A stretch of 33,556 nucleotides of DNA, taken from Betaproteobacteria bacterium. GTDB lineage: Bacteria; Pseudomonadota; Gammaproteobacteria; Burkholderiales; Nitrosomonadaceae. Position numbers and translations under genes: made by a program. How positions within the stretch are numbered: position 1 is the first letter of the stretch; each line of letters opens with the position of its first letter. The notes under the pieces were generated by a model. That model was not told where the DNA came from. It was given only the letters and a program-made list of their open reading frames with translations, and did no database searches. Of the stretch, positions 11,439 through 30,060 are shown in pieces. The stretch spans positions 1 through 33,556 of the forward strand of contig SMXG01000032.1 in NCBI GenBank assembly GCA_004356775.1, in the 5' to 3' direction.

Positions 11439-12422
11439 ATGCACGCTACCCTACCATTGCTTCAGACGACCAAGTTCCCGAGCCTAAGTCGCCACCAACT
11501 TACGACTCTTCAGATTAACCTTGGCTATCGATGTAATTTGGCCTGCGTACATTGCCATGTCAATGCTGGACCAAACCGAAAAGAAATGATGGGCAGTGAA
11601 ACCCTTGCCCTAATCCCTCTTGTGCTCACGGCCCGTAACATCACCACACTTGACCTCACTGGGGGCGCCCCTGAACTGCACAATGGATTCAGACAGTTGG
11701 TAAGAGAGGCAGGTACCTTAGGCGTAAAAGTCATCGATCGCTGCAATCTAACTATCCTGTTTGAACCCGGCCAGGACGGACTAGCTGAATTTCTGGCAAC
11801 ACAGCAGGTCGAGATTGTTGCCTCGCTTCCTTGTTATTCGCTTGCAAATGTGGATAAGCAGCGCGGGGAAGGCGTTTTTGACAAAAGCATTTTAGCCTTG
11901 CAAAAGCTTAATGCACTCGGTTATGGCCATAATGGTTCTGGATTGACGCTCAATCTAGTCTATAACCCACAAGGTGCTTCATTGCCTCCTGATCAAGCCA
12001 AACTGCAAGCCACTTATAAAAGGGAGTTGTATGAGAATTTCGGCATCTTGTTCAACGAGCTATTTACATTAACTAATATGCCCATACAGCGCTTTGGCTC
12101 AACCTTAATTTCAAATGGACAATTCAACGATTACATGCGACTGCTAAAGGAAAATTTCGCTGCAGCCAATCTTGTGAACGTGATGTGCCGCAATCTAATC
12201 AGTGTTGATTGGAAAGGCTTTCTCTATGACTGCGATTTTAATCAGCAATTGGGATTAGAGTTAGGTCTTGCTGCACAATCATTGCAAGGGCACAAAAGAA
12301 AACCTCATTTACGCGATTTGATCAACGAAGACCCGACGGGACGAGCAATCCGTGTGGCTGATCATTGCTACGGTTGTACCGCTGCACAAGGCAGCAGTTG
12401 TAGCGGTGCATTACATGAGTAA
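11439..12422 (+). CDS. arsS: Arsenosugar biosynthesis radical SAM protein ArsS
   Basis: A 327-residue radical SAM enzyme. C32-x3-C36-x2-C39 (CNLACVHCH) binds the 4Fe-4S cluster that cleaves SAM. LDLTGGAPEL is the usual GGE-type SAM motif in its ArsS variant. The C-terminal half (formerly DUF3641) has CRNLISVDWKG with CDFNQQLGLEL and a Cys cluster at the end (HCYGC, SSCSG), expected to hold auxiliary iron-sulfur chemistry. ArsS is proposed to add the 5'-deoxyadenosyl group to dimethylarsenite on the way to arsenosugars. The start has a strong site (GAGGAGAGGC before ATG). It heads an operon with two arsenosugar-type glycosyltransferases and arsM. Confidence 0.94.
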   Translation: MHATLPLLQTTKFPSLSRHQLTTLQINLGYRCNLACVHCHVNAGPNRKEMMGSETLALIPLVLTARNITTLDLTGGAPELHNGFRQLVREAGTLGVKVIDRCNLTILFEPGQDGLAEFLATQQVEIVASLPCYSLANVDKQRGEGVFDKSILALQKLNALGYGHNGSGLTLNLVYNPQGASLPPDQAKLQATYKRELYENFGILFNELFTLTNMPIQRFGSTLISNGQFNDYMRLLKENFAAANLVNVMCRNLISVDWKGFLYDCDFNQQLGLELGLAAQSLQGHKRKPHLRDLINEDPTGRAIRVADHCYGCTAAQGSSCSGALHE

Positions 12423-12431
12423 AACTAAATA

Positions 12432-14606
12432 ATGAGAAAAATATCGATTGTTGTTGCGGCAATATTTTTGGTGCTAATTTTTTTTGCGCTGGATTTAAAC
12501 TCCTATCTATCTCTCCATAGTCTTAAGACTAGCCTAGGACAATTCGAGGTATGGAGAGCAGCCTCACCAGTACTTGTTGGGTTCAGCTTCTTCTTGTTTT
12601 ATGTGGCAGTTGCTGCACTTTCCTTACCGGGTGCCACGGTGATGACGCTCGCCGCTGGCGCTTTGTTTGGCCTACTGTGGGGCACAATAATTGTGTCATT
12701 TGCCTCCAGCATCGGCGCGATACTTGCCTTTTTAGTCTCACGTTATCTATTTCGTGAAGCCATTCAGAGCCGCTTCGGAGACCGACTTAAGTCTATCAAT
12801 GATGGTATCGCTAGGGACGGTTTATTCTATCTGTTCACACTACGTATGGTGCCGCTGTTTCCATTCTTTCTTGTCAATCTGCTGATGGGGCTAACTCTGA
12901 TACGCGGTAGCAGCTATTATTGGGTGAGTCAGATGGGTATGCTTGCCGGCACTCTTGTTTATGTTAATGCAGGTACACAACTAGCGAAGATATCGGGACT
13001 TTCCAGCATCGTCTCGCCTGGGCTGCTAATTTCGTTCACGTTATTAGGAGTATTTCCGATACTTGCCAAATGGTTTCTAAATTTCCTGCAACGTCGCCGC
13101 GTCTATGCCAAATGGCAACGCCCGCAGAAGTTTGACCGTAATCTGATAGTAATCGGCGCCGGAGCAGCCGGTTTGGTTACTGCCTATATCGGTGCCACCG
13201 TTAAGGCCAAGGTGACATTGATCGAAGCACACAAGATGGGCGGCGATTGCCTAAACTATGGCTGTGTACCTAGCAAGACATTGATCAAGTCGGCCCGTCT
13301 CTCCCATCAGATGAGCCATGGTGATAACTACGGACTTAAAGCTATAGTACCCGAATTCAGTTTTCGCAAGGTGATGGCGCGAGTACATGAGGTTATCCGC
13401 ACCGTAGCACCACATGACAGCGTTGAACGCTACACTAAATTAGGCGTAGAAGTACTTGAGGGTTACGCCCGTATCAAAGATCCTTGGACTGTAGAAGTCA
13501 AGCTCCTTAACGGCGACATACAACGCCTAACCACCCGAAACATTGTAATAGCCACAGGCGCTCGACCAATCGTGCCCCCTTTATCCGGTTTGAATGATGT
13601 CGGCTACGTTACCAGCGACACACTGTGGGATGAATTTGCTAAAGAGGATATGCCGCCGTCTCGATTGATTGTACTGGGTGGTGGGCCGATTGGCTGTGAG
13701 CTAGCTCAGAGTCTTGCCCGGTTGGGTTCCAAAGTCATTCAAATCGAAATGGCGTCTCGGATTATGACCCGCGAAGACGAAGAGATATCGGAATTGGTAC
13801 AGATCTCGCTTGAGCGGGACGGCGTAGACGTGCTCACCTCCCATAAAGCCATTCGCTGTGAGCGCGAAGATGAGCACAAGTTCATTGTCGTAGAACACGA
13901 CGGAGTGGAGCAACGCATCGAGTTCGACACACTGTTATGTGCCGTGGGTCGCGCGGCGCGGCTAACAGATTATGGCCTGGAAGAGCTGGGTATTAAAACC
14001 CAAAGCACAGTGATAACGAACGAATATCTGGAAACACTGTATCCAAACATCTTCGCCGCTGGGGACGTGGCAGGCCCTTACCAATTCACCCATACCGCTG
14101 CACATCAAGCTTGGTATGCAGCAGTCAACGCGCTCTTTGGGGATTTTAAGAAATTCAAGGTGGATTATTCAGTGATTCCCTGGGCTACATTCATTGACCC
14201 AGAGGTCGCCCGTGTAGGACTCAATGAACAAGAAGCTAGAAACAAGGGTGTGCCATTCGAGGTTACAAGGTATGAATTCGACGACCTTGATCGCGCTATT
14301 ACAGATAGTACGACGCACGGCTTCGTCAAAGTACTAACGGTACCGGGCAAGGATCGCATTCTGGGTGCAACCATCGTGGGCGAGCACGCAGGGGATTTGC
14401 TCGCCGAATTTGTATTGGCGATGAAGCATGGATTGGGGCTTTCAAAGATTCTCGGCACAATCCACACTTACCCAACTTTGGCAGAAGCAAATAAATACGT
14501 AGCAAGCAAATGGAAAAAAACTCATTCACCGCAACGTGTATTGACGTGGTTGTTTCGTTATCACGCCTGGAAACGAGAACGGACTGCATGGTTCGAATCA
14601 TCATGA
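12432..14606 (+). CDS. TVP38/TMEM64 (VTT) membrane domain fused to FAD-dependent disulfide oxidoreductase
   Basis: A 724-residue fusion. Residues 1 to about 225 form a VTT/DedA-like membrane domain (ALSLPGATVMTLAAGALFG, then FLVNLLMGLT). Residues about 237-710 form a mercuric reductase/lipoamide dehydrogenase-like flavoenzyme. It has an FAD site (GAGAAGL), the redox-active pair C273 and C278 in GGDCLNYGCVPSK, an NAD(P) site (GGGPIGCELAQSLARLG), the second FAD motif (FAAGDVAG) and a HTYPTLAE end (H678) that supplies the catalytic base. The NmerA domain and terminal Cys pair of true MerA are absent, so mercury reduction is unlikely. In this operon it may handle thiol redox state for arsenic enzymes or drive transport; both are inference. 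It starts 9 bases after arsS and its TGA overlaps the next ATG. Confidence 0.92.
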   Translation: MRKISIVVAAIFLVLIFFALDLNSYLSLHSLKTSLGQFEVWRAASPVLVGFSFFLFYVAVAALSLPGATVMTLAAGALFGLLWGTIIVSFASSIGAILAFLVSRYLFREAIQSRFGDRLKSINDGIARDGLFYLFTLRMVPLFPFFLVNLLMGLTLIRGSSYYWVSQMGMLAGTLVYVNAGTQLAKISGLSSIVSPGLLISFTLLGVFPILAKWFLNFLQRRRVYAKWQRPQKFDRNLIVIGAGAAGLVTAYIGATVKAKVTLIEAHKMGGDCLNYGCVPSKTLIKSARLSHQMSHGDNYGLKAIVPEFSFRKVMARVHEVIRTVAPHDSVERYTKLGVEVLEGYARIKDPWTVEVKLLNGDIQRLTTRNIVIATGARPIVPPLSGLNDVGYVTSDTLWDEFAKEDMPPSRLIVLGGGPIGCELAQSLARLGSKVIQIEMASRIMTREDEEISELVQISLERDGVDVLTSHKAIRCEREDEHKFIVVEHDGVEQRIEFDTLLCAVGRAARLTDYGLEELGIKTQSTVITNEYLETLYPNIFAAGDVAGPYQFTHTAAHQAWYAAVNALFGDFKKFKVDYSVIPWATFIDPEVARVGLNEQEARNKGVPFEVTRYEFDDLDRAITDSTTHGFVKVLTVPGKDRILGATIVGEHAGDLLAEFVLAMKHGLGLSKILGTIHTYPTLAEANKYVASKWKKTHSPQRVLTWLFRYHAWKRERTAWFESS

Positions 14607-15280
14607 AGCTGTCCATAATCATACCAATACTAAACGAAGCACGTGGGATTCCTCAGTTACTTGAAAAACTGACACCACTGGTTCGAAACGACTGCGAGAT
14701 TATCATCGTCGACGGCGGTAGTGAGGATGGTTCGGCTGATATAGTCGAACACGCCGGCTTTATGGTAAAACGGGCGCCCCGCGGCCGCGCTCGTCAAATG
14801 AATGCTGGTGCGGCGCATGCTACCGGAACGGTATTATTGTTCCTACATGCTGATACACAACTGCCGGATAAGGCTGATTTGTTAGTCAAACAAGCACTTT
14901 CAAATAGCTCATCATCCTGCTGGGGTTGCTTTGATGTTTGCATAGCCGGACGCCCAATAATGCTTCGTGTGGTTGGATATATGATGAATCTGCGCTCACG
15001 TCTAACCAGCATTGTCACTGGTGATCAAGCTATGTTTGTCCTACAAACAGCTTTTACGGAGGCGGGTTGCTTTCCAGATCAACCATTGATGGAAGACGTT
15101 GAGCTGTCAAAACGACTGCGCTCAATCTCGCCGCCTGCCCGTATCACCTCCTGTGTCATTACTTCAGGTCGGCGCTGGGAGATGCATGGTGTCTGGCGCA
15201 CAATTTTTCTTATGTGGCGACTGCGTTGGGATTACTGGCGGGGGATCCCGGCAAGCCAACTGGCAAAGACATATCAGTGA
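14603..15280 (+). CDS. Family 2 glycosyltransferase, arsenosugar type (TIGR04283)
   Basis: A 225-residue GT-A fold glycosyltransferase. The N-terminal pattern MKLSIIIPILNEARGI, the VDGGSEDGS nucleotide-binding segment, RGRARQMNAGAA, the metal-site region LFLHADTQLP and the acceptor-side GDQAMFV with PLMEDVELSKRL match the TIGR04283 subgroup tied to arsenosugar clusters. Expected role: transfer of a sugar in the late steps of arsenosugar or arsenolipid synthesis, at the cytoplasmic face. The ATG at 14603 overlaps the stop of the previous gene (ATGA); the frame opens earlier at 14510, but that part lacks family sequence. The end overlaps the next gene by GTGA. Confidence 0.9.
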   Translation: MKLSIIIPILNEARGIPQLLEKLTPLVRNDCEIIIVDGGSEDGSADIVEHAGFMVKRAPRGRARQMNAGAAHATGTVLLFLHADTQLPDKADLLVKQALSNSSSSCWGCFDVCIAGRPIMLRVVGYMMNLRSRLTSIVTGDQAMFVLQTAFTEAGCFPDQPLMEDVELSKRLRSISPPARITSCVITSGRRWEMHGVWRTIFLMWRLRWDYWRGIPASQLAKTYQ

Positions 15281-15900
15281 AAACTATCCGTATCGTGATT
15301 TTCGCCAAAGCAGCGCAACCAGGATTTGCTAAGACACGTCTGATTCCTGCACTTGGGGAACAAGGTGCAGCTGAACTCGCACAACGCATGTTAACGCACA
15401 CGCTGAATGAAGCCCTAGTCGCTAAAATAGGCCCGATTGAATTATGTGTAACTCCATCTTCAACAGACACAATGTGGCAGACACTTGCTATATCGGATGA
15501 AGTGGAATATTCAGATCAGGGTGAGGGAGATTTAGGAGAACGACTGGCACGTGTAACACGGCGCGTGATCGCTGATGACGAATCAGTCTTACTTATTGGG
15601 ACCGATTGCTTTGAACTCACTGCATTTCACCTGCAGCAAGCCGCTAACGCGCTACGTCACTTTGACTCAACACTCATTCCTGTTACTGACGGTGGTTATG
15701 CGTTGCTTGGCCTAAATTTTTTTCATCCCTCTTTGTTCAAATCTATCGAATGGAGTACCAACGCTGTTTTCTTTGAAACCATGTATCGCTTGGAACAATT
15801 AGGCTGCTCTGTACAAAATTTTCCCCGTTTACACGATATTGACGAGCCGAGCGATCTAAGGTGGCTTCCCAAAACCTGCGAGGAAGAAGGATATGCATAG
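15277..15900 (+). CDS. DUF2064/TIGR04282 glycosyltransferase, arsenosugar type
   Basis: A 207-residue nucleotidyl/glycosyl transferase-like protein. It shows IVIFAKAAQPGFAKTRLIP (the basic FxKxPxPGxxKTRL-like loop), GDLGERLARV, LLIGTDCFELT and PVTDGGYALLGL, with HDIDEPSDL near the end. These match the DUF2064 family, subgroup TIGR04282, which co-occurs with TIGR04283 and arsS. The start is GTG 15277, inside a GTGA overlap with the previous stop. The frame extends upstream to 15214, but that stretch lacks family sequence. It probably makes or handles the activated sugar used by its partner. The stop overlaps the next ATG by 8 bases. Confidence 0.9.
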   Translation: MKTIRIVIFAKAAQPGFAKTRLIPALGEQGAAELAQRMLTHTLNEALVAKIGPIELCVTPSSTDTMWQTLAISDEVEYSDQGEGDLGERLARVTRRVIADDESVLLIGTDCFELTAFHLQQAANALRHFDSTLIPVTDGGYALLGLNFFHPSLFKSIEWSTNAVFFETMYRLEQLGCSVQNFPRLHDIDEPSDLRWLPKTCEEEGYA

Positions 15901-16648
15901 TAAATGGATAGCAGCAGTGTTGAGCCTACTGAGCACGAATGTCTTAGCGCAAGATACGGTAAATCATGTAGGCCACTTCGTTGCGGCTGTTAGTACAACA
16001 CCTCCCGCCCCCTGGCAGGTGATTCGATTCGACAAACGGATACCTCCCACTCAGTACCAAGTAATTTCTTGGGATGGCGTAATTGCTGTAGAGGCTAAGG
16101 CTAACGCCAGTATGGCATTGCTAGCGCGACCGCTTTCGGTCGATCTTACGCTTACCCCTGTTTTGTGCTGGCGATGGCGGGTCGATGCCCCACTTAAAAC
16201 TGCAGATATGGCAACTAAGCAAGGTGATGATTACGCGGCACGGGTTTACCTTGCTTTCAGCCTACCCACAGAAAATATCGATTTCATCACTAAGGCCAAG
16301 CTCAAACTAGTACGTAGCCTTTATGGAAACCATGTTCCGGACGCAGCGCTCAATTATGTTTGGGATAACCGCTATCCTGTTGGTACTCAGCGCCCTAACG
16401 CCTACACGGATCGCACACAGATGATAGTGCTGCGCTCTGGGCCTGAATATGCCGGAGTATGGGTGACAGAACGACGTAACATACTGGCTGATGCCATGCT
16501 AGCCTTCGATACCGATCGTGTCAGCCCAACTCTGCTAGCCGTAGCAGCCGATACTGATAACACTGGTGAGCGTGCCCATTCTGGTTTCGCCGATTTACAC
16601 TTTGTGCCAATCGATACAAAGTGTGATTTTCCCTTAGCCAAACAATGA
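15893..16648 (+). CDS. DUF3047 periplasmic protein
   Basis: A 251-residue exported protein. The signal peptide is about residues 1-19 (KWIAAVLSLLSTNVLA) before QDTVNHV. The body matches DUF3047: IRFDKRIPPTQYQVISWDG, then VLCWRWRVDAPLKTADM, DDYAARVYLAFSLP, LNYVWDNRYPVGTQRPNAY, and a GPEYAGVWVTERRNILAD segment. This is a beta-sandwich-like fold with unknown ligand. It overlaps the TIGR04282 gene by 8 bases, so it is translated with it. DUF3047 genes are frequent in arsenosugar-type clusters, but no activity has been assigned that I know of. Confidence 0.85.
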   Translation: MHSKWIAAVLSLLSTNVLAQDTVNHVGHFVAAVSTTPPAPWQVIRFDKRIPPTQYQVISWDGVIAVEAKANASMALLARPLSVDLTLTPVLCWRWRVDAPLKTADMATKQGDDYAARVYLAFSLPTENIDFITKAKLKLVRSLYGNHVPDAALNYVWDNRYPVGTQRPNAYTDRTQMIVLRSGPEYAGVWVTERRNILADAMLAFDTDRVSPTLLAVAADTDNTGERAHSGFADLHFVPIDTKCDFPLAKQ

Positions 16649-16805
16649 GATGAATCGATGACATCAGTCTGATTTTTGATGAAATGAATTTGTTGTTCAA
16701 AAACTTACACAAGGTCACTGCAAAATCTTCTCATGGATTGTAAGAACTGCATTCGTTATAACGACCAATTTACGACGTCATTTTGCAAAAATTAGGAGTT
16801 CAACC

Positions 16806-17846
16806 ATGCATGAGATTGTTCAAGATTACTATGGCCGCCAATTGCAGCATACTGACGACCTAAAAACTAACGCTTGCTGCGACACCAACCAAATTCCAGC
16901 ATGGTTAAAACCGCTTCTCTCGCGAATCCATCCAGAGGTGCTCTCGCGCTACTACGGTTGTGGGCTGGTCTGCCCACCCCTGCTTGACGGTTGCCGGGTC
17001 TTAGACCTTGGTTGCGGCTCGGGACGTGATGTTTACCTGTTGTCCCAACTCGTAGGGCCGACGGGAGAAGTGGTGGGCGTTGATATGACGCATGAACAAC
17101 TCACTGTTGCCAAAAAACATCAAGAGCACCACTCGGATACCTTTGGTTACTCCAATGTACATTTCCTCCAAGGCTATATCGAACATCTTGATGAAATAGG
17201 TCTGGAACCAGACAGTTTTGATGTGATCGTATCCAATTGTGTGATCAACCTTTCGCCCGATAAAGACACAGTACTAAGCGGTATACACCGCCTACTCAAA
17301 GATGGAGGCGAATTCTACTTCTCAGATGTATACGCGGATCGACGCGTGCCGGATGCAGTGCGTAACGATCCAGTGCTCTATGGTGAATGCTTAGGCGGCG
17401 CACTCTACTGGAATGACTTCATGCGTCTTGCACATCGACAAGGTTTTACAGACCCACGTTTAGTCACTGACCAATCGTTGTTGATCACGAACTCCGATCT
17501 GGCATCACGTATTGGGAGTCTGCGTTTTTTCTCGGCTACTTACCGGTTGTTCAAACTTAAAGAGTTGGAAATCTCATGTGAGGACTATGGTCAAGCAGTA
17601 ATGTATTGTGGCAACATCCCTGATCATACTGACCGATTTGTACTCGATAAACACCACGATATCGAGACCGATAGGTTTTTTCCAGTGTGTGGCAACACTT
17701 GGCGTATGTTACATGACACACGCTTCGCAGCACATTTCAAATTCATTGGTGATTTTAGTCGTCACTTTGGACTTTTTGCCGGTTGCGGCGGTGGCTTGCC
17801 GTTCGACACAGTTCTAGATACGAAAGTAACTTCTACATGTTGCTGA
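16806..17846 (+). CDS. arsM: Arsenite SAM methyltransferase ArsM, arsenosugar-cluster type
   Basis: A 346-residue class I methyltransferase. The SAM motif DLGCGSGRD is at 67-75 and GVDMTHEQL at 91-99. Four cysteines match the ArsM arsenic site by spacing: C24, C52, C145 (SNCVINLS) and C195 (GECLGG). The last two are 50 apart, as in characterised ArsM. It should methylate trivalent arsenic to the mono- and dimethyl forms used by ArsS. It has a C-terminal extension rich in Cys: CGGG near residue 327 and a CC pair at the very end. The start has AGGAG seven bases upstream. A gap of 157 bases separates it from DUF3047, so a second promoter is possible. Confidence 0.93.
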   Translation: MHEIVQDYYGRQLQHTDDLKTNACCDTNQIPAWLKPLLSRIHPEVLSRYYGCGLVCPPLLDGCRVLDLGCGSGRDVYLLSQLVGPTGEVVGVDMTHEQLTVAKKHQEHHSDTFGYSNVHFLQGYIEHLDEIGLEPDSFDVIVSNCVINLSPDKDTVLSGIHRLLKDGGEFYFSDVYADRRVPDAVRNDPVLYGECLGGALYWNDFMRLAHRQGFTDPRLVTDQSLLITNSDLASRIGSLRFFSATYRLFKLKELEISCEDYGQAVMYCGNIPDHTDRFVLDKHHDIETDRFFPVCGNTWRMLHDTRFAAHFKFIGDFSRHFGLFAGCGGGLPFDTVLDTKVTSTCC

Positions 17847-17886
17847 CCTCTTATCGAACCAGCTTAGCTAAACAAGCAAGGACTGA

Positions 17887-18975
17887 ATGATGGAATGGCT
17901 ACTGATCGCATCTGCACTTTTTATTGCTTTTAGCAATGGTGCAAACGATAACTTCAAAGGTTTTGCCACCGTTTGGGGGACTAATACTCTAAACTATCGT
18001 CAGGCGCTTATCTTGGCCACCCTTGCGACAGTAGCCGGGAGTTTGGCTTCACTAACACTTGCCGGGGATCTCGTTCAGCAGTTTTCCGGAAAAGGGCTGG
18101 TGCCAGATGTGGTTGCCAGTGCACCACTATTCATTTTGAGTGTTGCTACTGGCGCTGCCGTTACTGTTTTTCTAGCCACACAACTGGGCTTCCCGGTTTC
18201 CACCACTCACGCCCTCATTGGCGGACTGGTTGGAGCTGGGTTGGCGCAAAGTGAAGGTGTGGTACATTTCGACAAGTTGGCTGGCACGTTTATGTTGCCC
18301 CTTTTAGTCAGCCCGATAATCGCAGTCGTGCTCGGCATGCTAGCCTACAAAGTGTTTCGTATGCATCCGATTGAAATTGCGAAAGATTGTGCCTGCCTAG
18401 TAGCACCAACACAATCACTGATACCAATGATGGATGGCACTCTAGTTAGTCGGTTTTCTACCCCAGGCATTTTATTGGCCCCCGATGCGATGTGTGAGCG
18501 CCTAGAAACACCAGTTCGGTTTTCTGTATCGAACAACATGGATCGTTTACATATTTTATCGGCGATGGCGATCTGTTTTGCACGCGGCGTAAATGACACG
18601 CCGAAGCTGACGGCGCTGTTCCTCGCCGCACACTTACTACAACCTTCTGCCTCCGTAGCAATGATCAGTTTCGCGATGGCCATGGGAGGATTACTATTTG
18701 CTAGACAGGTTGCAAAAACGATGAGTCAACGTATTACACGAATGGATCACGCACAGGGGCTTGCCGCTAATTTAATTACAGCATCCTTAGTGCTGATTGC
18801 GAGCAAGTTTGGCCTACCGGTTTCGACAACCCATGTCTCTGTTGGCTCTATCGCTGGAGTAGGTGCCAGTGCGAAAACACTTGATTGGCAGACACTACGT
18901 AACGTCTTGTTGTCCTGGATAGTGACACTGCCATTTGCAGCTGGAATTGCTTGGCTCTTGGCCGCAGTCAGTTGA
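17887..18975 (+). CDS. PiT family inorganic phosphate permease
   Basis: A 362-residue polytopic inner-membrane transporter. The two PiT signature repeats are seen: FSNGANDNFKGFATVWG near residue 15 and FARGVNDTPKLTALFLA near 235. The paired LGFPVSTTHALIGG (about 100) and FGLPVSTTHVSVGS (about 315) segments carry substrate-site residues. PiT proteins import phosphate with a cation and often accept arsenate. It sits 40 bases after arsM in the same direction, with AAGGA before the ATG, so it is probably the last gene of the operon. It could supply phosphate under arsenic stress or bring in arsenate; the sequence does not decide. Confidence 0.92.
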   Translation: MMEWLLIASALFIAFSNGANDNFKGFATVWGTNTLNYRQALILATLATVAGSLASLTLAGDLVQQFSGKGLVPDVVASAPLFILSVATGAAVTVFLATQLGFPVSTTHALIGGLVGAGLAQSEGVVHFDKLAGTFMLPLLVSPIIAVVLGMLAYKVFRMHPIEIAKDCACLVAPTQSLIPMMDGTLVSRFSTPGILLAPDAMCERLETPVRFSVSNNMDRLHILSAMAICFARGVNDTPKLTALFLAAHLLQPSASVAMISFAMAMGGLLFARQVAKTMSQRITRMDHAQGLAANLITASLVLIASKFGLPVSTTHVSVGSIAGVGASAKTLDWQTLRNVLLSWIVTLPFAAGIAWLLAAVS

Positions 18976-20942: not shown

Positions 20943-21662
20943 CTACACTGTGAAACGGATACTTAGCATCACTACACTAAACAAGTAGCCATCGGGCCAA
21001 ATAGAAACCTTTTTGATTCTTCGGTCACGGTCGGCGTGGTATTGCGCAGCTCCCTTTTCATACGCGCGGATGATCGCTCGGCGCGTTGCATGCTGATCGA
21101 GCTAACGTTTCAAGTAGGGAAAATCATCAAGCTGTGGCTCTAAAAAGGATGCTTCAACCCATGGGTAACAAGCCATATCGGCAATAGAGCACTCTTCAGA
21201 GATGTACCGGAAATTAGCCAGTCTGCCGTTGAGAACCTTTAATAATCGCCTAGTTTCATTTACCTAACGCTCAATGGCATGAGGGATATTCTCCGGAGCA
21301 TACTGATTAAAGTGCTGGTTTTGTCCGAGCATTGGCCCAAGACCACCCACCTGCCAAAATAACCACTTCAAGACTTCCGTGCGTGCAGAAAAGTCCGTGG
21401 GGATAAACCGAGCAGTCTTTTCTGCAAGATATAAAAGAATCGCTCCTGATTCAAAGAACGCAATTGACCCGCTGGCGACTTCAGGATCACGATCAACCAC
21501 CACCGGTATCTTGTTATTTGGTGAAATCTGTAGGAATTTTGGGTCGAACTGCTCGCTTTTACTAATGTTGATGGGAATTATGCGCTAAGGGATACCAGTC
21601 TCTTCCAGAAGCACTAGTACTTTATAACCATTTGGAGTTGTCCAGGAATAATAGTCAAACAT
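20943..21662 (-). pseudogene. Glutathione S-transferase (YfcG/YghU type) with three TAG stops
   Basis: From ATG 21662 one single frame runs about 240 codons and is clearly a YfcG-like GST: MFDYYSWTTPNGYKVLVLLE, then FDPKFLQISPNNKIPVVVD, SGAILLYLAEKTARF, WLFWQVGGLGPMLGQNQHF, YISEECSIADMACYPWVEA. It is broken only by three in-frame TAG codons: in GIP*RI (normally Tyr), in IER*VNETRRL (normally Tyr) and in YLKR*LDQ (normally Trp). No frameshift is needed. The intact enzyme would be a glutathione-dependent disulfide-bond oxidoreductase. TAG ends other genes here, so readthrough is unlikely and this is a recent pseudogene. Confidence 0.88.
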
Positions 21663-24241: not shown

Positions 24242-24359
24242 TAAGCAAGATTAATGGATTGTCCAGTTGGTGTTGTGTCATCAAATACTCAAAAGCGCCC
24301 AATGCGGCATTAGCACCTGCGCTGGCAGCAATCATGATTTTCATATTCTGCTGATGGAT
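24231..24359 (-). pseudogene. C-terminal fragment of a thioredoxin-reductase-like flavoprotein
   Basis: Directly after the TAG of the DCC gene and in the same frame, 42 codons read IHQQNMKIMIAASAGANAAL then GAFEYLMTQHQL, ending at a TAG at 24231-24233. The IAAxxGANAALxAFEYL pattern is the last helix of thioredoxin-reductase/AhpF-like FAD enzymes. All upstream domains are missing. It is either the tail left by a deletion or, less likely, a readthrough extension of DCC. The homology call is from pattern memory. Confidence 0.45.
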
Positions 24360-24722
24360 CTATATTCGTTGACTGCGTTGAAGTCGCCGAATAACCTGCC
24401 AATGGTACAATCTCGCAATACTAGGTCGAATAAGCGGCAAGCTGATCAGCCAAGCAAGCGGCCTTAGTCTTGGCACCCTTCTCATCAGAAGTATGTAAGC
24501 ATCGAGTTCCGTCAGGATACGATGGGTCTCGTCTCTGACATGCAGCTCCGTTAATGCTTTATGCGGATCAATACCCATTTCACGCAATTGCTCTTCTTGT
24601 CCAGTTATATCAAACCAATCTACATTTGCAGCTGCTGAGCCCGAAAGTTTTTCATACCAGCACCTGTCTTTGACGCACTCAGGACAGGCACCATCATAAT
24701 AAACGACAACCTTCTCATTCAT
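24360..24722 (-). CDS. DCC family thiol-disulfide protein (DUF393)
   Basis: A 120-residue thioredoxin-fold protein of the DUF393/DCC family. The N-terminal YYDGACPECVKDRCWYEKL carries the DGxCPxC redox motif, followed by NVDWFDITGQEEQLREMGID and the usual central ELHVRDETHRILTELDAYILL. A hydrophobic C-terminal part (RPLAWLISLPLIRPS) may contact the membrane. It starts 6 bases after the stop of the frameshifted GST, so both are in one transcript. It lies on the same strand as the buf genes and may be part of that unit, with a thiol-handling role inferred. Confidence 0.85.
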   Translation of the reverse strand: MNEKVVVYYDGACPECVKDRCWYEKLSGSAAANVDWFDITGQEEQLREMGIDPHKALTELHVRDETHRILTELDAYILLMRRVPRLRPLAWLISLPLIRPSIARLYHWQVIRRLQRSQRI

Positions 24723-24728
24723 AGTATT

Positions 24729-25321
24729 TCAACCTGGCATGGGGGCATACCAGTCTTGTGCCTCTATGCGTTTGACCCATGACTCAACTTTTAGGTACTT
24801 GCTTAAACTAATCGTAGTATCTTTTGTTAGCATCACGAGCGGAAACACTGCTAGATCGGCGATTGTGATGCCATCTCCAGCCAACCAGTCACGCCCAGAT
24901 AACTGGCTATTTAAGAAGATCAAATGGGTATGGGAGGCTTCCACCAACACACCATAATCATACGGTGCCCCAAACAGCTTCACCGCTCGCACCTTACACT
25001 TAGGCTATGCTGTATCTCATTGGCTGCAAAAGACAACCAAAATGCAACACGTAACTGACTCAGTGGGTCTGTCGGAACATGTGCATTATCCGCATATTTT
25101 GCATTCAGATAGACCAGAATACCTTGTGAGTCATAGGCATATTCTGCTCCATCTTCCAACGCCGGCACCTGCCCTAGCGGGTGTTTAGCTAAAAAGGTGG
25201 GTGTTTTATGCTCGCCTGCTGGTAGATCGACTGTCACTTCTTCATACTCTTTTCCAATCAGCACTAGCATCATCCGTATTTTATGGGAATTACCCGATAA
25301 AGGGTCAGTCTGGAGTCTCAT
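24729..25321 (-). pseudogene. Glutathione S-transferase with one frameshift
   Basis: The N-terminal thioredoxin-fold half (MRLQTDPLSGNSHKIRMMLV, LAKHPLGQVPALEDG, YDSQGILVYLNAKY) ends at a TGA near 24980. The C-terminal helical half continues in another frame from about 24992 (AVKLFGAPYDYG, SGRDWLAGDGITIADLAVFP, WVKRIEAQDWYAPMPG). Joined, they make a full-length GST of about 196 residues. One indel in the GTAAGGTGCGAG area explains the break. All else is well conserved, so the lesion is recent, a sequencing error, or a recoding site. AAGGAG lies seven bases before ATG 25321. It sits between the DoxX gene (167 bases away) and DCC. Confidence 0.8.
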
Positions 25322-25488
25322 CGCCTTTCTCCTTATGGCAGAGTGCTGTCAATAACAAAAACGAATACAAGTAGGATGATATAGGGTAATTATAAAACGT
25401 GCACTTGAACAGATATCCATGTAGGCATTTATGCAAATAAAGTTAAAAACAGGCGGGAAGGAGCATTTTTATATGATTCACCATTTTA

Positions 25489-25947
25489 CTATGCGCAACT
25501 TTTCAGGCTGGAGCATTTTCCAAAACACTTCATCAACCAATGATCTAGTCCAAATTTTCCGCCACCATGCGTCAACAAAATACCCATCAGCAAAAACCAG
25601 TAATAGTGCTCGGTAGTGTCAGGATAAACGAAAAGCTCAATCACCAGTGTCATGCCCATCAGGCCAAGCGCGCTCAGCGGCGTCATTAGGCCTAGGACGA
25701 GCAGCGTAGGTAAAAATAGCTCGGCGGTAGTGGCTATATAGGCTGCGATCTCCGGCGAAAGGATCGGAACCTTATATTCATCGGCAAAGAGAGCGACCGT
25801 CGTGTTCCAGCTCTTGATCTTCGTCAGCCCTGACATAAAGAAAACCTCGGCGATCCACAATCGAACCACTAGTAACGAAACGGCCTGAAACCAACTTGCG
25901 TTGCCAATAAGTTTATTCCCCATGGAGCACACATATTTGATCAACAT
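25489..25947 (-). CDS. bufD: DoxX family membrane protein (bufferin operon)
   Basis: A 152-residue four-helix membrane protein of the DoxX family. Conserved signs: LLVVRLWIAEVFFMSGLTKI near 27-46, IATTAELFLPTLLVLGLMTP near 70-90, LGLMGMTLVIELFVYPD, and a C-terminal LTHGGGKFGLDHWL. Its ATG overlaps the previous stop in TAATG, so it is translationally coupled to bufC. DoxX members are the usual last gene of bufABCD/hvf sets. The role there is not settled; a part in membrane redox or export is inferred. The symbol is assigned by position in the set. Confidence 0.85.
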   Translation of the reverse strand: MLIKYVCSMGNKLIGNASWFQAVSLLVVRLWIAEVFFMSGLTKIKSWNTTVALFADEYKVPILSPEIAAYIATTAELFLPTLLVLGLMTPLSALGLMGMTLVIELFVYPDTTEHYYWFLLMGILLTHGGGKFGLDHWLMKCFGKCSSLKSCA

Positions 25948-26714
25948 TAGTTTCCATCCTTATTAATAAACACACCCATAGATACGGCCTGAGCAAATTC
26001 CTGTTGAAACGCCTGGACGTCTTGCAGTCTATCTCCCACATGAAGCATTGCTTTGGCAAAGCTTTCGCCTTCCTGGCAGGATACAAGTAATTTTTTCAAG
26101 GATGTCGATACTTTTTTAAGAAGAACGACATCCTCCTGATCACGCCAGACGAGGACAGTTTGTGGGTTTTCAAAGAGCGTAATGGATTCAATCTCCTTTT
26201 TCTGATGTCCTTGCCAAATCTCAAGAGCATTAAAACGCAGGTCAACAAAATGAACACCAGGATGAAGCAACAATACAAAATTAGGTCGTTCAGATATTAG
26301 ATTTGTTAAGCTATTGAAATCTGTTACTAAAGCATCAGCAGCGATTGCTGCTTGAAAATATGCCCACTCAATTGCGGCCATATCGGAAAGATAAGGCCAT
26401 GGTGCGGCGGGCTGGAATAAGCTTAAAAACGCACCAAGTTCTCCTCCAAATGTATGACGATTGCCAGTAGACTGTGAATGTATCTCAATATAATGGTGTG
26501 CGATTGTTCTGAAAAAGCCTTTCCCAACGATTTTCTGTAGAATAGGGTATGCACCCGCCAAAATGTCTGTCAGGCCGAGCAAAGTGTTGTTGTAATAAAT
26601 ATTAAGCCTTTCCGATGAGTTGGATTTGCTTTTGTCCAGATAAACGGCACTGGTGTGTTCGCCTGAATAAACATCGTGCATAAAAGCAGCCTGAATGCTA
26701 TGCAGTGCAGGCAT
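25947..26714 (-). CDS. bufC: BufC/HvfC-like partner protein (DUF2063)
   Basis: A 255-residue protein with an N-terminal DUF2063 domain: LHSIQAAFMHDVYSGEH, then RLNIYYNNTLLGLTDILAGA and YPILQKIVGKGFF. FRTIAHHYIEIHSQSTGNRH and then FLSLFQPAAPWPYLSDMAAI follow. This is the partner that binds the DUF692 enzyme and presents the peptide substrate in bufferin, HvfA and methanobactin-type systems. AAGGGGGGA before ATG 26714 decides the start over an upstream frame start at 26747. It overlaps the end of bufB by 17 bases and touches bufD. Confidence 0.88.
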   Translation of the reverse strand: MPALHSIQAAFMHDVYSGEHTSAVYLDKSKSNSSERLNIYYNNTLLGLTDILAGAYPILQKIVGKGFFRTIAHHYIEIHSQSTGNRHTFGGELGAFLSLFQPAAPWPYLSDMAAIEWAYFQAAIAADALVTDFNSLTNLISERPNFVLLLHPGVHFVDLRFNALEIWQGHQKKEIESITLFENPQTVLVWRDQEDVVLLKKVSTSLKKLLVSCQEGESFAKAMLHVGDRLQDVQAFQQEFAQAVSMGVFINKDGN

Positions 26715-27558
26715 CGAATCCCCCCTTAACGCGCTGATGTACCACATTGGCTTTGTTTGCTTCCATGATCAAAACATCTAGCGCAGGGATGTCTATATCC
26801 CATTCGACTAGAGTCAGCACGTCTCTGAAGCGACCTAGCGCATATTCATACAGACTCCAAACTTCAGGATAAATAGGCGCGCCATGAGTATCAAGGTAGA
26901 TTTTCTCACCATTTTCGAGCGTGTTAATTTGATATCCAGCAAGATGAAACTGCCTAACTCGGCCATCGACTAGAATACTGTCGATATAGGCTTGCGGATC
27001 GTAGTCAAGATTATATGCACTGATGCAAATATTATTAATATCGAGTAGAAGCCCACATCCACTTCGATCTACTAGCTCATTTAGAAATTCAGGTTCGGTA
27101 TAATCTAGATCGTCAAAAGCGAGGTAGTTCGATGGATTTTCAACCAATACCTGCCGCCCAATTTTATCCTGAAATTCTTTAACATGATCTACAAAAACAT
27201 CCATGGCCTCGTTAATAAAAGGGATCGGCAACAGATCAGGGACGTGAATATGGTTGTATGCACTCCAAGTCAGATGCTCAGATACAAAAACGGGTTTAAT
27301 TTCATCAATAAGCGACTTGATTTGCCTGATATGTTCTGGGTCGAGACCATCTGCACGCCCAAGGGAGAGCCCCACCCCATGAAGGGAAACAGGATACATC
27401 TCGGCAATCTGTTTGAGTAGCTTACGAGATTGCCCGCCACCAAAGTAATTCTCAGAATGAGCTTCTAAAAACCCGACACTCGCTTTAGATGTTAAAAGTT
27501 CCCGCACATGCGGCGCACGCAATCCAATACCGGTCAATTCAAGCGTTTGACGCTGCAT
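26698..27558 (-). CDS. bufB: DUF692 multinuclear iron enzyme (BufB/MbnB family)
   Basis: A 286-residue TIM-barrel iron enzyme of the MNIO (DUF692) family. Expected metal ligands are present: H60 (SLHGVGLSLG), H95 (SEHLTW), E140 (LVENPSNY), D173 (LLDINNI), H205 (FHLAGY), D223 and H225 (LDTHGAP) and E252 (LVEWD). MNIO enzymes rework cysteine residues in a precursor peptide; in bufferins they make thiooxazole groups that bind copper. The substrate is the bufA product encoded 27 bases upstream. It overlaps bufC by 17 bases. Length is normal. Confidence 0.94.
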   Translation of the reverse strand: MQRQTLELTGIGLRAPHVRELLTSKASVGFLEAHSENYFGGGQSRKLLKQIAEMYPVSLHGVGLSLGRADGLDPEHIRQIKSLIDEIKPVFVSEHLTWSAYNHIHVPDLLPIPFINEAMDVFVDHVKEFQDKIGRQVLVENPSNYLAFDDLDYTEPEFLNELVDRSGCGLLLDINNICISAYNLDYDPQAYIDSILVDGRVRQFHLAGYQINTLENGEKIYLDTHGAPIYPEVWSLYEYALGRFRDVLTLVEWDIDIPALDVLIMEANKANVVHQRVKGGFDACTA

Positions 27559-27585
27559 AGCATAAATCCCGGAGTTTGCAGGATA

Positions 27586-27846
27586 TTACTTTTTGGCAAC
27601 TCTACCACCGACGATCTTATCGCAAGTGCCAGTTGGAACATATAGCCATTCCTTTGAATCGCCATCTTTCTTCGCTTTACCAGCACAGCTGTGTCCTTTA
27701 GCAGCACAGTCGTTTTGACTCGCTTTTGCTATGCCGGCACATTTTTCAAAGCCTTCTTTAGCTTGCACATCAGGGGCTATCATCGCAGCACCTGCGACAA
27801 AAATTGCAAGAGCGGTTACAGTATGAAAAGATTTTGAGGGTTGCAT
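27586..27846 (-). CDS. bufA: Bufferin precursor peptide (DUF2282)
   Basis: An 86-residue exported precursor. The signal peptide is about residues 1-29 ([20 protein letters not shown] then QA). The core has four cysteines, C36, C47, C54 and C75, in the DUF2282 arrangement: [43 protein letters not shown]. Such peptides are modified on Cys by the DUF692 enzyme and then bind copper in the periplasm. AAGGAAG lies seven bases before the ATG. A candidate ECF promoter lies about 95 bases upstream. It heads the buf operon and faces the sigma gene. Confidence 0.93.
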
Positions 27847-27938
27847 GATTAAGCTTCCTTTTCAGTTGGTTTTACATAAATAGAAAGAAGACTACTCGCT
27901 AAATTGACTACAAATAAGTCCCCCTTTCATCAGTATGA

Positions 27939-27965
27939 ATACGTGCCGTGAATAAATTAGTTACA
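27939..27965 (-). promoter_or_regulatory. Candidate ECF-sigma promoter of the buf operon
   Basis: On minus: TGTAAC (27965-27960), 16 bases, CGTAT (27943-27939). A start near 27932 would give a leader of about 85 bases before bufA. It has the same boxes as the sigma and arsS promoters. Confidence 0.7.
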
Positions 27966-27989
27966 TTCTATATATAATTTTTATGCAAA

Positions 27990-28017
27990 TGTAACATTGA
28001 GACTGATGACAACGTAT
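27990..28017 (+). promoter_or_regulatory. Candidate autoregulatory ECF-sigma promoter
   Basis: On plus: TGTAAC (27990-27995), 17 bases, CGTAT (28013-28017). Transcription would begin about 28024, only some seven bases before the sigma ATG, so the mRNA would be nearly leaderless. It is divergent from the buf promoter. Confidence 0.65.
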
Positions 28018-28030
28018 AACATAGGGATTA

Positions 28031-28567
28031 ATGACGAAGTATAACAGTGATAGATGGGATGAATGGATGCGCGCCGCTCTAAAGGGCGATCAGAATGCCT
28101 ACCACTTACTATTAACCAGCTTACGTTTCTGGCTTGCGGCCTATTTTGCAAAACGTGTCCATTACAATGCCGCTGAGGATTTGGTGCAGGATACATTATT
28201 AACATTGCATGCTAAACGCCAAACATTTGATCCCCGCTATCCCTTCGGGCCGTGGATGGCAGCAGTTGCACGTCATCGCTGGATTGACCACTTGCGCGCA
28301 ACATTAAAATATGTCGAAACTCAGTTGGAAGATGATTTCCCATCTCAGAAAACGGGCCGGGATGCTTGTGCGAAGCACGATGTCAAAGCTTTGCTAAAGT
28401 TGATCCCTCCCCCTCAAGCAAAGGTGATTGAGTTAGCTAAACTTAGAGAAATGTCCATTGAAGAAGTATCTAAACAAACGGGTCATAGCCCATCTTCGGT
28501 CAAGGTTATGATTCATCGGGGTATGAAAAAAATGATGGCAGCAGTCGAAAAAGTCCAAGATGACTGA
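28031..28567 (+). CDS. sigF: ECF-type RNA polymerase sigma factor (SigF-like)
   Basis: A 178-residue group 4 sigma factor. Region 2 shows HYNAAEDLVQDTLLTLHAKR and then FGPWMAAVARHRWIDHLRA; region 4 shows LAKLREMSIEEVSKQTGHSP and SSVKVMIHRGMKKM, the helix-turn-helix that reads the -35 box. Region 3 is absent, as in ECF factors. It is followed by a DUF1109 (NrsF) anti-sigma gene in TGATG overlap. This is the SigF/NrsF pair known from Caulobacter, where it drives metal-responsive bufferin-type genes. AGGGA precedes the ATG. It faces bufA. The symbol is by analogy. Confidence 0.92.
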   Translation: MTKYNSDRWDEWMRAALKGDQNAYHLLLTSLRFWLAAYFAKRVHYNAAEDLVQDTLLTLHAKRQTFDPRYPFGPWMAAVARHRWIDHLRATLKYVETQLEDDFPSQKTGRDACAKHDVKALLKLIPPPQAKVIELAKLREMSIEEVSKQTGHSPSSVKVMIHRGMKKMMAAVEKVQDD

Positions 28568-29223
28568 TGAGTGCGTCCAAAATGACTGACCAGCTGATCG
28601 CGCGTTTGGTGAGTGACCTCAAGCCACAAGAGCCGATTATAGATTCTAAGCTTTGGCTGCACTGCACCGTGTGCCTCTTAATAGTGGCGAGTGTTGTCAT
28701 AGCAATGATGGGACTGCGTACCGACTTTCCAACTGCCTTACAGGATGGGGCTATGCTTTGGAAACCTGGTATATTTTTGTTCGCCTGGATCAGCAGCATA
28801 CTTCTCATATTGGACCTTTCCAGGCCAATTAAAAGAGTCGAAAAAAGGCACTTCGTTCCCTTCTTTCTGGCAGGAACCATTCTGCTGTGGCAACTGATTG
28901 TTCAGCTACCGTTTCTTTCCACATCCGATGCAGCATTAAGCCTTCGTGACCCCAGTGCCATTTATTGCCTATCCGTTATCATTGGCGGAGGAGGAATAGT
29001 GATGGTGGTGTCTTGGAAATTCTGGTTTTCTAGAACAGCTTCTCCAAATCCCACGGCCCTGGGTGCGCTAGCTGGTTTTAGCGCAGGATGCCTTGCTGCA
29101 ACGGCATATGCCTTGCATTGTGACAAGGACGGAATCTTGTATATCTTTATCTATTATGGAATATCTGTGGTGACACTATCTTTCCTTGGCAGCTTATTGA
29201 GCAAAAAATTATTAAAGTGGTAG
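28567..29223 (+). CDS. nrsF: NrsF/DUF1109 membrane anti-sigma factor
   Basis: A 218-residue membrane protein with six hydrophobic segments, starting about 31-49 (LHCTVCLLIVASVVIAMM) and ending about 189-215. The short cytoplasmic N-terminus (KMTDQLIARLVSDLKP) is where the family binds the sigma factor. Two cysteines, C134 (AIYCLS) and C185 (ALHCDK), lie in the positions where this family has conserved periplasmic-side cysteines thought to sense metals. C33, C36 and C175 are also present. The ATG overlaps the sigma stop (TGATG), so it is cotranslated. Metal binding to the Cys would release the sigma factor; that is family knowledge. Confidence 0.9.
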   Translation: MSASKMTDQLIARLVSDLKPQEPIIDSKLWLHCTVCLLIVASVVIAMMGLRTDFPTALQDGAMLWKPGIFLFAWISSILLILDLSRPIKRVEKRHFVPFFLAGTILLWQLIVQLPFLSTSDAALSLRDPSAIYCLSVIIGGGGIVMVVSWKFWFSRTASPNPTALGALAGFSAGCLAATAYALHCDKDGILYIFIYYGISVVTLSFLGSLLSKKLLKW

Positions 29224-29502
29224 ATTTAAATCACTTTCAGGTACTACCAATTCAAATTTTGATGTGGGAATTATATGGCCTGTCACCGAGATATGAATTA
29301 AAGTTAGATAAATTTTATAAGAGGCTCTAATCCGTCCCCGCCTTCGTTCTGCAGACAAGATCTAGTTCTCGATCAGTAGTTTCTACCGTTTCACTATCTT
29401 GGCCGGTACTATCCTGATAAAAGTGTCCTGATTCATTCAAATGGACGTTTTACAGAGCTCCGCCATACGTTAGCAAGTAATAGTAGGTTCTTATCAAATC
29501 AC

Positions 29503-30060
29503 TCAATAATAATGCTGACTATGATTGCTACCGTGCATGCCATGATCCATTTTCATGGTTTTAAGCTGATCCCTTTGATCAGCTGACAGAATGGCATGCA
29601 CTACATTACGGTTTCTGATGTGCTGTTCAAGCATAGCTTTAAATACCTCTACATAATCGTTGCCAAGTTTACGTAAAGTGGCTTCATCGGTACTAGGCTT
29701 CATACTTTCGTGATGCAACTGCATCATACTTTTACGAATTCTTTTCTTGAATTGCTTGTGTTCTTGTGCATGTTTTAAGTGCAGACGGACAATCCTACCG
29801 AGTTGAGCATCGGAAAGCTCCAATTCGTCCGCATGAGTGGCAATCATATGTGCATAACTACGGCCGCCATGCCTCATCCTACCTCTCATATTCCCCATCA
29901 TGCTGGCACTACTTTGGAGAGCTTTCGCTACCATAAAGCCGTTATCCGCGGATTGCCCAGCAGGGGAGTTGTCTGCCGCTGAAGCAATCGGTACAGTACC
30001 AAGGATAAAAGCAAAGGCAAAGGCAATAAAAATAGAAATCATGGATTTTTTGTAGAGCAT
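29503..30060 (-). CDS. Spy/CpxP-like periplasmic metal-response protein, His-rich tail
   Basis: A 185-residue exported protein. The signal peptide is about residues 1-28 (MISIFIAFAFAFILGTVPIA then SA). The mature all-helical part shows the LTxxQ-type motifs: LELSDAQLGRIVRLHLKHA near 80-98 and ILSADQRDQLKTMKM near 157-171. The end (MDHGMHGSNHSQHYY) is rich in His and Met, suggesting copper or nickel binding. Relatives (Spy, CpxP, CnrX, ZraP) chaperone periplasmic proteins or sense metal. AGGAG lies eight bases before ATG 30060. It is convergent with nrsF and may be part of the same metal response, although no ECF box precedes it. The 279-base gap 29224-29502 shows no gene. Confidence 0.8.
   Translation of the reverse strand: MLYKKSMISIFIAFAFAFILGTVPIASAADNSPAGQSADNGFMVAKALQSSASMMGNMRGRMRHGGRSYAHMIATHADELELSDAQLGRIVRLHLKHAQEHKQFKKRIRKSMMQLHHESMKPSTDEATLRKLGNDYVEVFKAMLEQHIRNRNVVHAILSADQRDQLKTMKMDHGMHGSNHSQHYY

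Follow-up and report, generated by a model that had tools for sequence, protein, structure and literature searches.

A probable SigF/NrsF-controlled bufferin locus with a lineage-specific GST-DCC tail in an apparently ammonia-oxidising genus

Overview of the locus

The locus described here is quite probably a Buf1-type bufferin locus under the control of SigF/NrsF, which carries a lineage-specific tail of GST and DCC genes and has a Spy-like gene lying outside it. The window, i.e. the whole stretch of DNA that was analysed, corresponds to an entire contig (C89, 33,556 bp) from a draft genome (1.76 Mb, 88% complete). Gene identities were judged by curated Pfam cut-offs plus equivalog models (e.g. 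NF050167), and the corresponding locus of a sister genome of the same genus (G003, locus L032) served for comparison. The following features were assigned (position, strand, identity):

24267-24346, minus: 80-bp remnant, 3' end of a glutaredoxin-thioredoxin reductase gene (complete in G003; blastn)
24360-24722, minus: DCC (DUF393) thioredoxin-like protein with a CPEC motif, intact (PF04134, 69.2 bits, cut-off 27.8)
24729-24992, minus: C-terminal half of GST, in a different frame (GST_C; 82% identical to residues 107-196 of the G003 GST)
24980-25321, minus: N-terminal half of GST (GST_N families; 85% identical to residues 1-109 of the intact G003 GST)
25489-25947, minus: DoxX-family membrane protein (PF07681, 65.7 bits, cut-off 23.6)
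25947-26747, minus: bufC, DUF2063 partner protein (PF09836, 56.3 bits, cut-off 27.2)
26698-27558, minus: bufB, MNIO-family bufferin maturase (NF050167 MNIO_BufB, 328.7 bits, cut-off 310; PF05114, 306 bits)
27586-27846, minus: bufA, Buf1-type bufferin precursor (DUF2282; PF10048, 81 bits, cut-off 22.4)
27940-27964, minus: SigF-like promoter of the buf genes, GTAAC-N16-CGTA (pattern match; conserved in G003 and L103)
27991-28016, plus: SigF-like promoter of sigF-nrsF, GTAAC-N17-CGTA (pattern match; conserved in G003 and L103)
28031-28567, plus: sigF, ECF sigma factor (Sigma70_r2 and Sigma70_r4_2 above cut-off)
28567-29223, plus: nrsF, anti-sigma factor (PF06532, 97.1 bits, cut-off 26.8)
29503-30060, minus: LTXXQ/Spy-like periplasmic protein (PF07813, 34.9 bits, cut-off 24.3)

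Core bufferin genes

Four genes, bufA-bufB-bufC-doxX, make up the core, a Buf1-type bufferin cluster of an already known kind, with the SigF/NrsF genes diverging from it. The preliminary description had placed bufA, bufB, bufC and a DoxX gene on one strand with the sigma/anti-sigma pair opposite, which the family matches confirmed, and had correctly recognised them as a known system. The locus was conserved gene for gene in G003, which argues that the arrangement is not due to chance. The N-terminus of BufA, as read from the sequence, is hydrophobic and precedes four Cys residues (contexts EKC, NDC, HSC and GTC), all of which were invariant in six homologues. BufB is related to PDB entry 3bww. 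The likely start of bufC, aligned with that of its G003 counterpart, is MPALH, such that the gene overlaps the end of bufB. tRNA and Rfam scans gave no matches.

Buf1 clusters with SigF/NrsF, as represented by Caulobacter CC3252-CC3257 and surveyed in a published landscape (PMC12452194), likewise contain a four-Cys DUF2282 precursor, an MNIO, a DUF2063 protein and DoxX, as well as divergent sigF-nrsF genes with SigF-type promoters (putative ones in the window) on both sides. Unlike these clusters, the window has CGTA instead of CGAA as its -10 element and a GST-DCC pair after DoxX. The same four core genes (DoxX, DUF2063, DUF692 and DUF2282) form the gig operons of Cupriavidus metallidurans and Legionella pneumophila, for which a copper/gold response has been reported (PMC10304878, PMC5413113) but, unlike in the window, no GST or DCC. 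HvfABCX/oxazolin-captophorin clusters employ MNIO, DUF2063 and DoxX enzymes from the same superfamilies; their precursor, however, is of the EGKCG type, whereas that of the window belongs to DUF2282. The Hvf equivalogs remained below cut-off in the window (HvfB 209.7 versus 360, HvfC 45.1 versus 142 and HvfX 53.7 versus 80 bits).

Paired SigF-like sites between bufA and sigF

SigF-like sites in the gap between bufA and sigF face both genes, and both were kept in G003. The published SigF site is GTAACC-N16-CGAA (PMC3511200), a sequence that is also present ahead of bufA or sigF in further buf loci with a SigF gene. In a contig from an uncultured alphaproteobacterial metagenome-assembled genome (L103; BufB identity 65%), NrsF-SigF is divergent from bufA-bufA-bufB-bufC-DoxX, again with sites facing both ways: one GTAAC-type site faces sigF, and another lies between the two bufA genes, facing bufA2-bufB. 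Two matches were found on this contig, with a chance expectation of 0.10 per locus, and none of 200 shuffles reached two. L103 differs from the window in that bufA is present in two copies and the contig stops inside DoxX, before any tail position. Since the pattern was not enriched genome-wide (47 matches versus 99 in the reversed control), only conserved paired sites were used.

The GST-DCC tail within the lineage

GST and DCC lie downstream of doxX, on the same strand and in the same order, in the window and in G003, with a doxX-GST gap of 167 bp and about 88 bp, respectively. DCC was 84% identical between the two genomes; a PDB sequence search with it gave nothing significant. Comparison of the window with G003 yielded dN/dS values of 0.10 and 0.19 for the two GST halves and 0.16 for DCC, next to 0.18 for BufA, 0.14 for BufB, 0.22 for BufC and 0.15 for DoxX. 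GST and DCC are thus under purifying selection like the buf genes; the pair was therefore functional and, as judged from sequence conservation, probably part of the buf gene string. The tail is common to the window and only one sister species, and it is lineage-specific, apparently dispensable and apparently decaying.

No SigF-type site was found upstream of GST in the window genome or in G003. The preliminary description had regarded an unrelated promoter of GST and DCC as evidence against an accessory tail; between doxX and GST, sigma-70 promoter and terminator scans gave signals at chance level. A hidden promoter could be present in this gap.

Distribution of GST and DCC among other buf loci

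Outside the genus, GST-DCC does not generally accompany buf genes. The order was represented by 399 genomes, of which 126 contained DCC and 197 an MNIO gene; among the matches listed, the two were found together only in the window and in none of the other 398 genomes. Similarly, DUF2282 was detected in 78 and DCC of this type in 15 of 284 genomes of the class, again together only in the window (0/283 others). About 94 other bufB loci contained one case of a same-strand DCC (Colwellia, bufA-doxX-DCC) and one of a same-strand GST within 1 kb (G040). The lack of co-occurrence that the preliminary description had named as speaking against its proposal was thus nearly complete outside the genus; the accessory tail is supported within this lineage only, where order and strand are shared with G003, the pair is intact in that genome and both genes are under purifying selection. 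A literature search retrieved no paper combining DUF393 and DoxX.

The closest DCC found outside the genus among named records (55% identity) was that of Colwellia sp. DT_18 (L119, 3132-4609), whose gene directly follows bufA-doxX on the same strand. This locus differs from the window in that the MNIO and DUF2063 genes belong to a second bufABC group about 5 kb away and GST is missing.

Other redox genes were thinly represented among the approximately 94 bufB loci (same-strand PNPOx-type flavoprotein in five, DUF1348 in four, MsrPQ in two and P460 in one), in line with a published account in which bufferin clusters very rarely include additional genes (PMC12452194). Methylomonas koyamae (L147, 5705-9970) has an independent buf-P460 neighbourhood, with genes for cytochrome P460 and MsrPQ located after bufABC-doxX on the same strand. 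In another genome of the order (L041, 5378-10163) and in Colwellia (L119, 7770-11715), the genes immediately ahead of bufABC encode a PNPOx-type flavoprotein and DUF1348; in L041, a GST lies between them.

GST and DCC may alternatively be an unrelated pair that lies beside the buf operon in a local patch of stress genes (thioredoxin reductase-glutaredoxin, P460 and DUF488) and has its own transcription. This reading, which we consider possible though rather doubtful, draws on the near absence of co-occurrence outside the genus, on the lack of a SigF-type site upstream of GST in either genome and on close DCC relatives in Photobacterium, Halomonas and G551 that have no buf genes nearby. It is opposed by the shared strand, gene order and tight spacing in two species whose dS is about 0.3-0.7, the near contiguity of GST and DCC, the independent bufA-doxX-DCC string of Colwellia and the absence of a promoter signal above chance.

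Rearrangement of the adjoining segment

G003 has extra genes between a GGDEF gene and DCC, encoding a glutaredoxin-thioredoxin reductase fusion, two cytochromes P460 and DUF488. In a blastn comparison with L032, the window matched up to position 24346 (L032 3299), and the match resumed at 24360 (L032 6682). As only 80 bp are left at the site and the 5' part of the reductase gene lies on another contig (C93), the reductase/P460/DUF488 segment is lost or moved from the window site, a rearrangement relative to G003. On C93, which belongs to the same genome (L217, 4599-5266), the 5' part of the reductase gene and a P460 fragment lie at the end of the contig, next to a gene for glutamate dehydrogenase. 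This placement weakens the idea that the thioredoxin reductase part was simply deleted. Likewise, a simple scenario in which an island was inserted next to Spy is weakened by an apparent thioredoxin reductase C-terminal remnant (IVIAASAGANAAL) beside GGDEF in G001 and G005, both of which lack buf; loss of an older island is therefore also possible.

The Spy-like neighbour

The Spy-like gene is present beyond the sigma/anti-sigma pair, as first described; its LTXXQ-matching product is rich in His and Met and scored below the cut-off of the Spy equivalog model (21.3 versus 174), and a PDB sequence search with it found no match. The suggestion that it is a partner of the buf genes was not supported. 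In three congeners without buf (G005, G001 and G002), the Spy gene comes immediately after this same GGDEF gene, with DjlA beyond (GGDEF-Spy distance about 190 bp in G005), and eight further contexts in the family showed a Spy gene without buf or sigF nearby. None of the approximately 94 other bufB loci contained Spy, and the main text of PMC12452194 mentions neither Spy nor LTXXQ. The Spy-like gene is a long-standing resident of this neighbourhood and does not belong to the buf locus.

It is accordingly very unlikely that bufferin loci possess a dedicated accessory module for copper and thiols made up of GST, DCC and Spy, as the preliminary description had proposed in full. In its favour, all three lie within 6 kb in two genomes, and Spy is rich in His and Met. 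These points are set against the buf-free Spy genes in the three congeners and eight other family contexts, the broken GST of the window and the frequencies elsewhere (about 1 in 94 each for GST and DCC, none for Spy).

The first ~50 residues of the Spy-like protein (29503-30060; L051, 6184-6546; L070-L073), comprising the signal peptide plus 'ADNPFxxQSLDKGYMvA', are common to EGKCG/HvfA-type RiPP precursors, which are encoded directly upstream of the other MNIO type throughout the family of the host. Copies from the sister genus keep a degraded 'HGEGNCCGGMM' stretch. Given this common leader and the degraded stretch, the Spy gene looks like a RiPP-leader/LTXXQ chimaera.

The split GST gene

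An intact GST gene, as initially reported, was not confirmed. DNA alignment with G003 revealed a 2-bp GT insertion at about 24998-24999, which splits the gene into two frames. GST_N and GST_C thus do not share a frame in the window, as they do in the G003 orthologue, where GST is a single intact frame of 196 amino acids at the same place, with DCC almost directly after it. In view of the low dN/dS of both halves, which is like that of the buf genes, the frameshift looks recent, or else an assembly error in the 88%-complete draft. Programmed frameshifting of an unbroken gene would accord with the good conservation of the rest of GST and the low dN/dS in both halves, but it is highly improbable and was rejected, since G003 lacks the GT duplication and encodes its entire GST in a single plain frame, and a slippery sequence was not noticed.

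Elsewhere on C89, another GST-like gene (21150-21635 and around) contains three in-frame TAG stops, at positions occupied by Tyr, Tyr and Trp in the intact G003 copy. TAG recoding, prompted by these stops, was rejected because DCC, DoxX, BufB and NrsF all end in TAG; the stops speak for real gene decay.

Proposed working of the locus

Bufferins are peptides that bind excess Cu and whose central Cys residues are modified by BufB-BufC prior to export through Sec. The model proposed for the window builds on the genes, Cys pattern and pair of SigF-like sites seen here and otherwise follows characterised bufferins. Upon metal stress, NrsF would release SigF, which would then transcribe its own gene and, divergently, bufABC-doxX. 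By analogy, BufB together with BufC would act in the cytoplasm on the BufA precursor, modifying its two central Cys, after which Sec would export modified BufA, and the mature peptide may chelate excess Cu in the periplasm. GST and DCC are most likely read through from the buf promoter. Judging from their family names, they would constitute a cytosolic thiol-redox tail, which plausibly helps to maintain thiol or GSH balance under thiol oxidation by Cu(I). Copper resistance in C. metallidurans draws on the gig (bufferin) operon as well as on glutathione (PMC10304878), which makes the thiol link plausible by analogy. A more far-reaching idea, which we regard as unlikely, is that some bufferin operons include a SigF-driven cytosolic GSH/thiol module, consisting of GST and DCC and in G003 also of the glutaredoxin-thioredoxin reductase fusion, which would keep the Cys of BufA reduced for the MNIO or handle Cu(I)-GSH before export.

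Host context and significance

The amoA gene was found in three of the eight genomes of the genus, which appears to be ammonia-oxidising; none was detected in the window's own draft genome (88% complete). Elsewhere, the window contains an arsenic gene cluster (11439-18975) with ArsS radical SAM and two arsenosugar glycosyltransferases (all above cut-off), an ArsM-like methyltransferase, a fused membrane/FAD oxidoreductase and a PiT-like transporter.

The analysis documents a SigF-type bufferin locus in an apparently ammonia-oxidising genus, and ammonia oxidisers as a group rely on copper enzymes. Comparison with relatives distinguishes the true parts of the locus, namely the buf core and the putative promoter pair, from a lineage-specific redox tail and a bystander Spy gene. 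If the tail is copper-induced, bufferin maturation would be linked to cytosolic thiol control, as the genetics of gig and glutathione in Cupriavidus hints.
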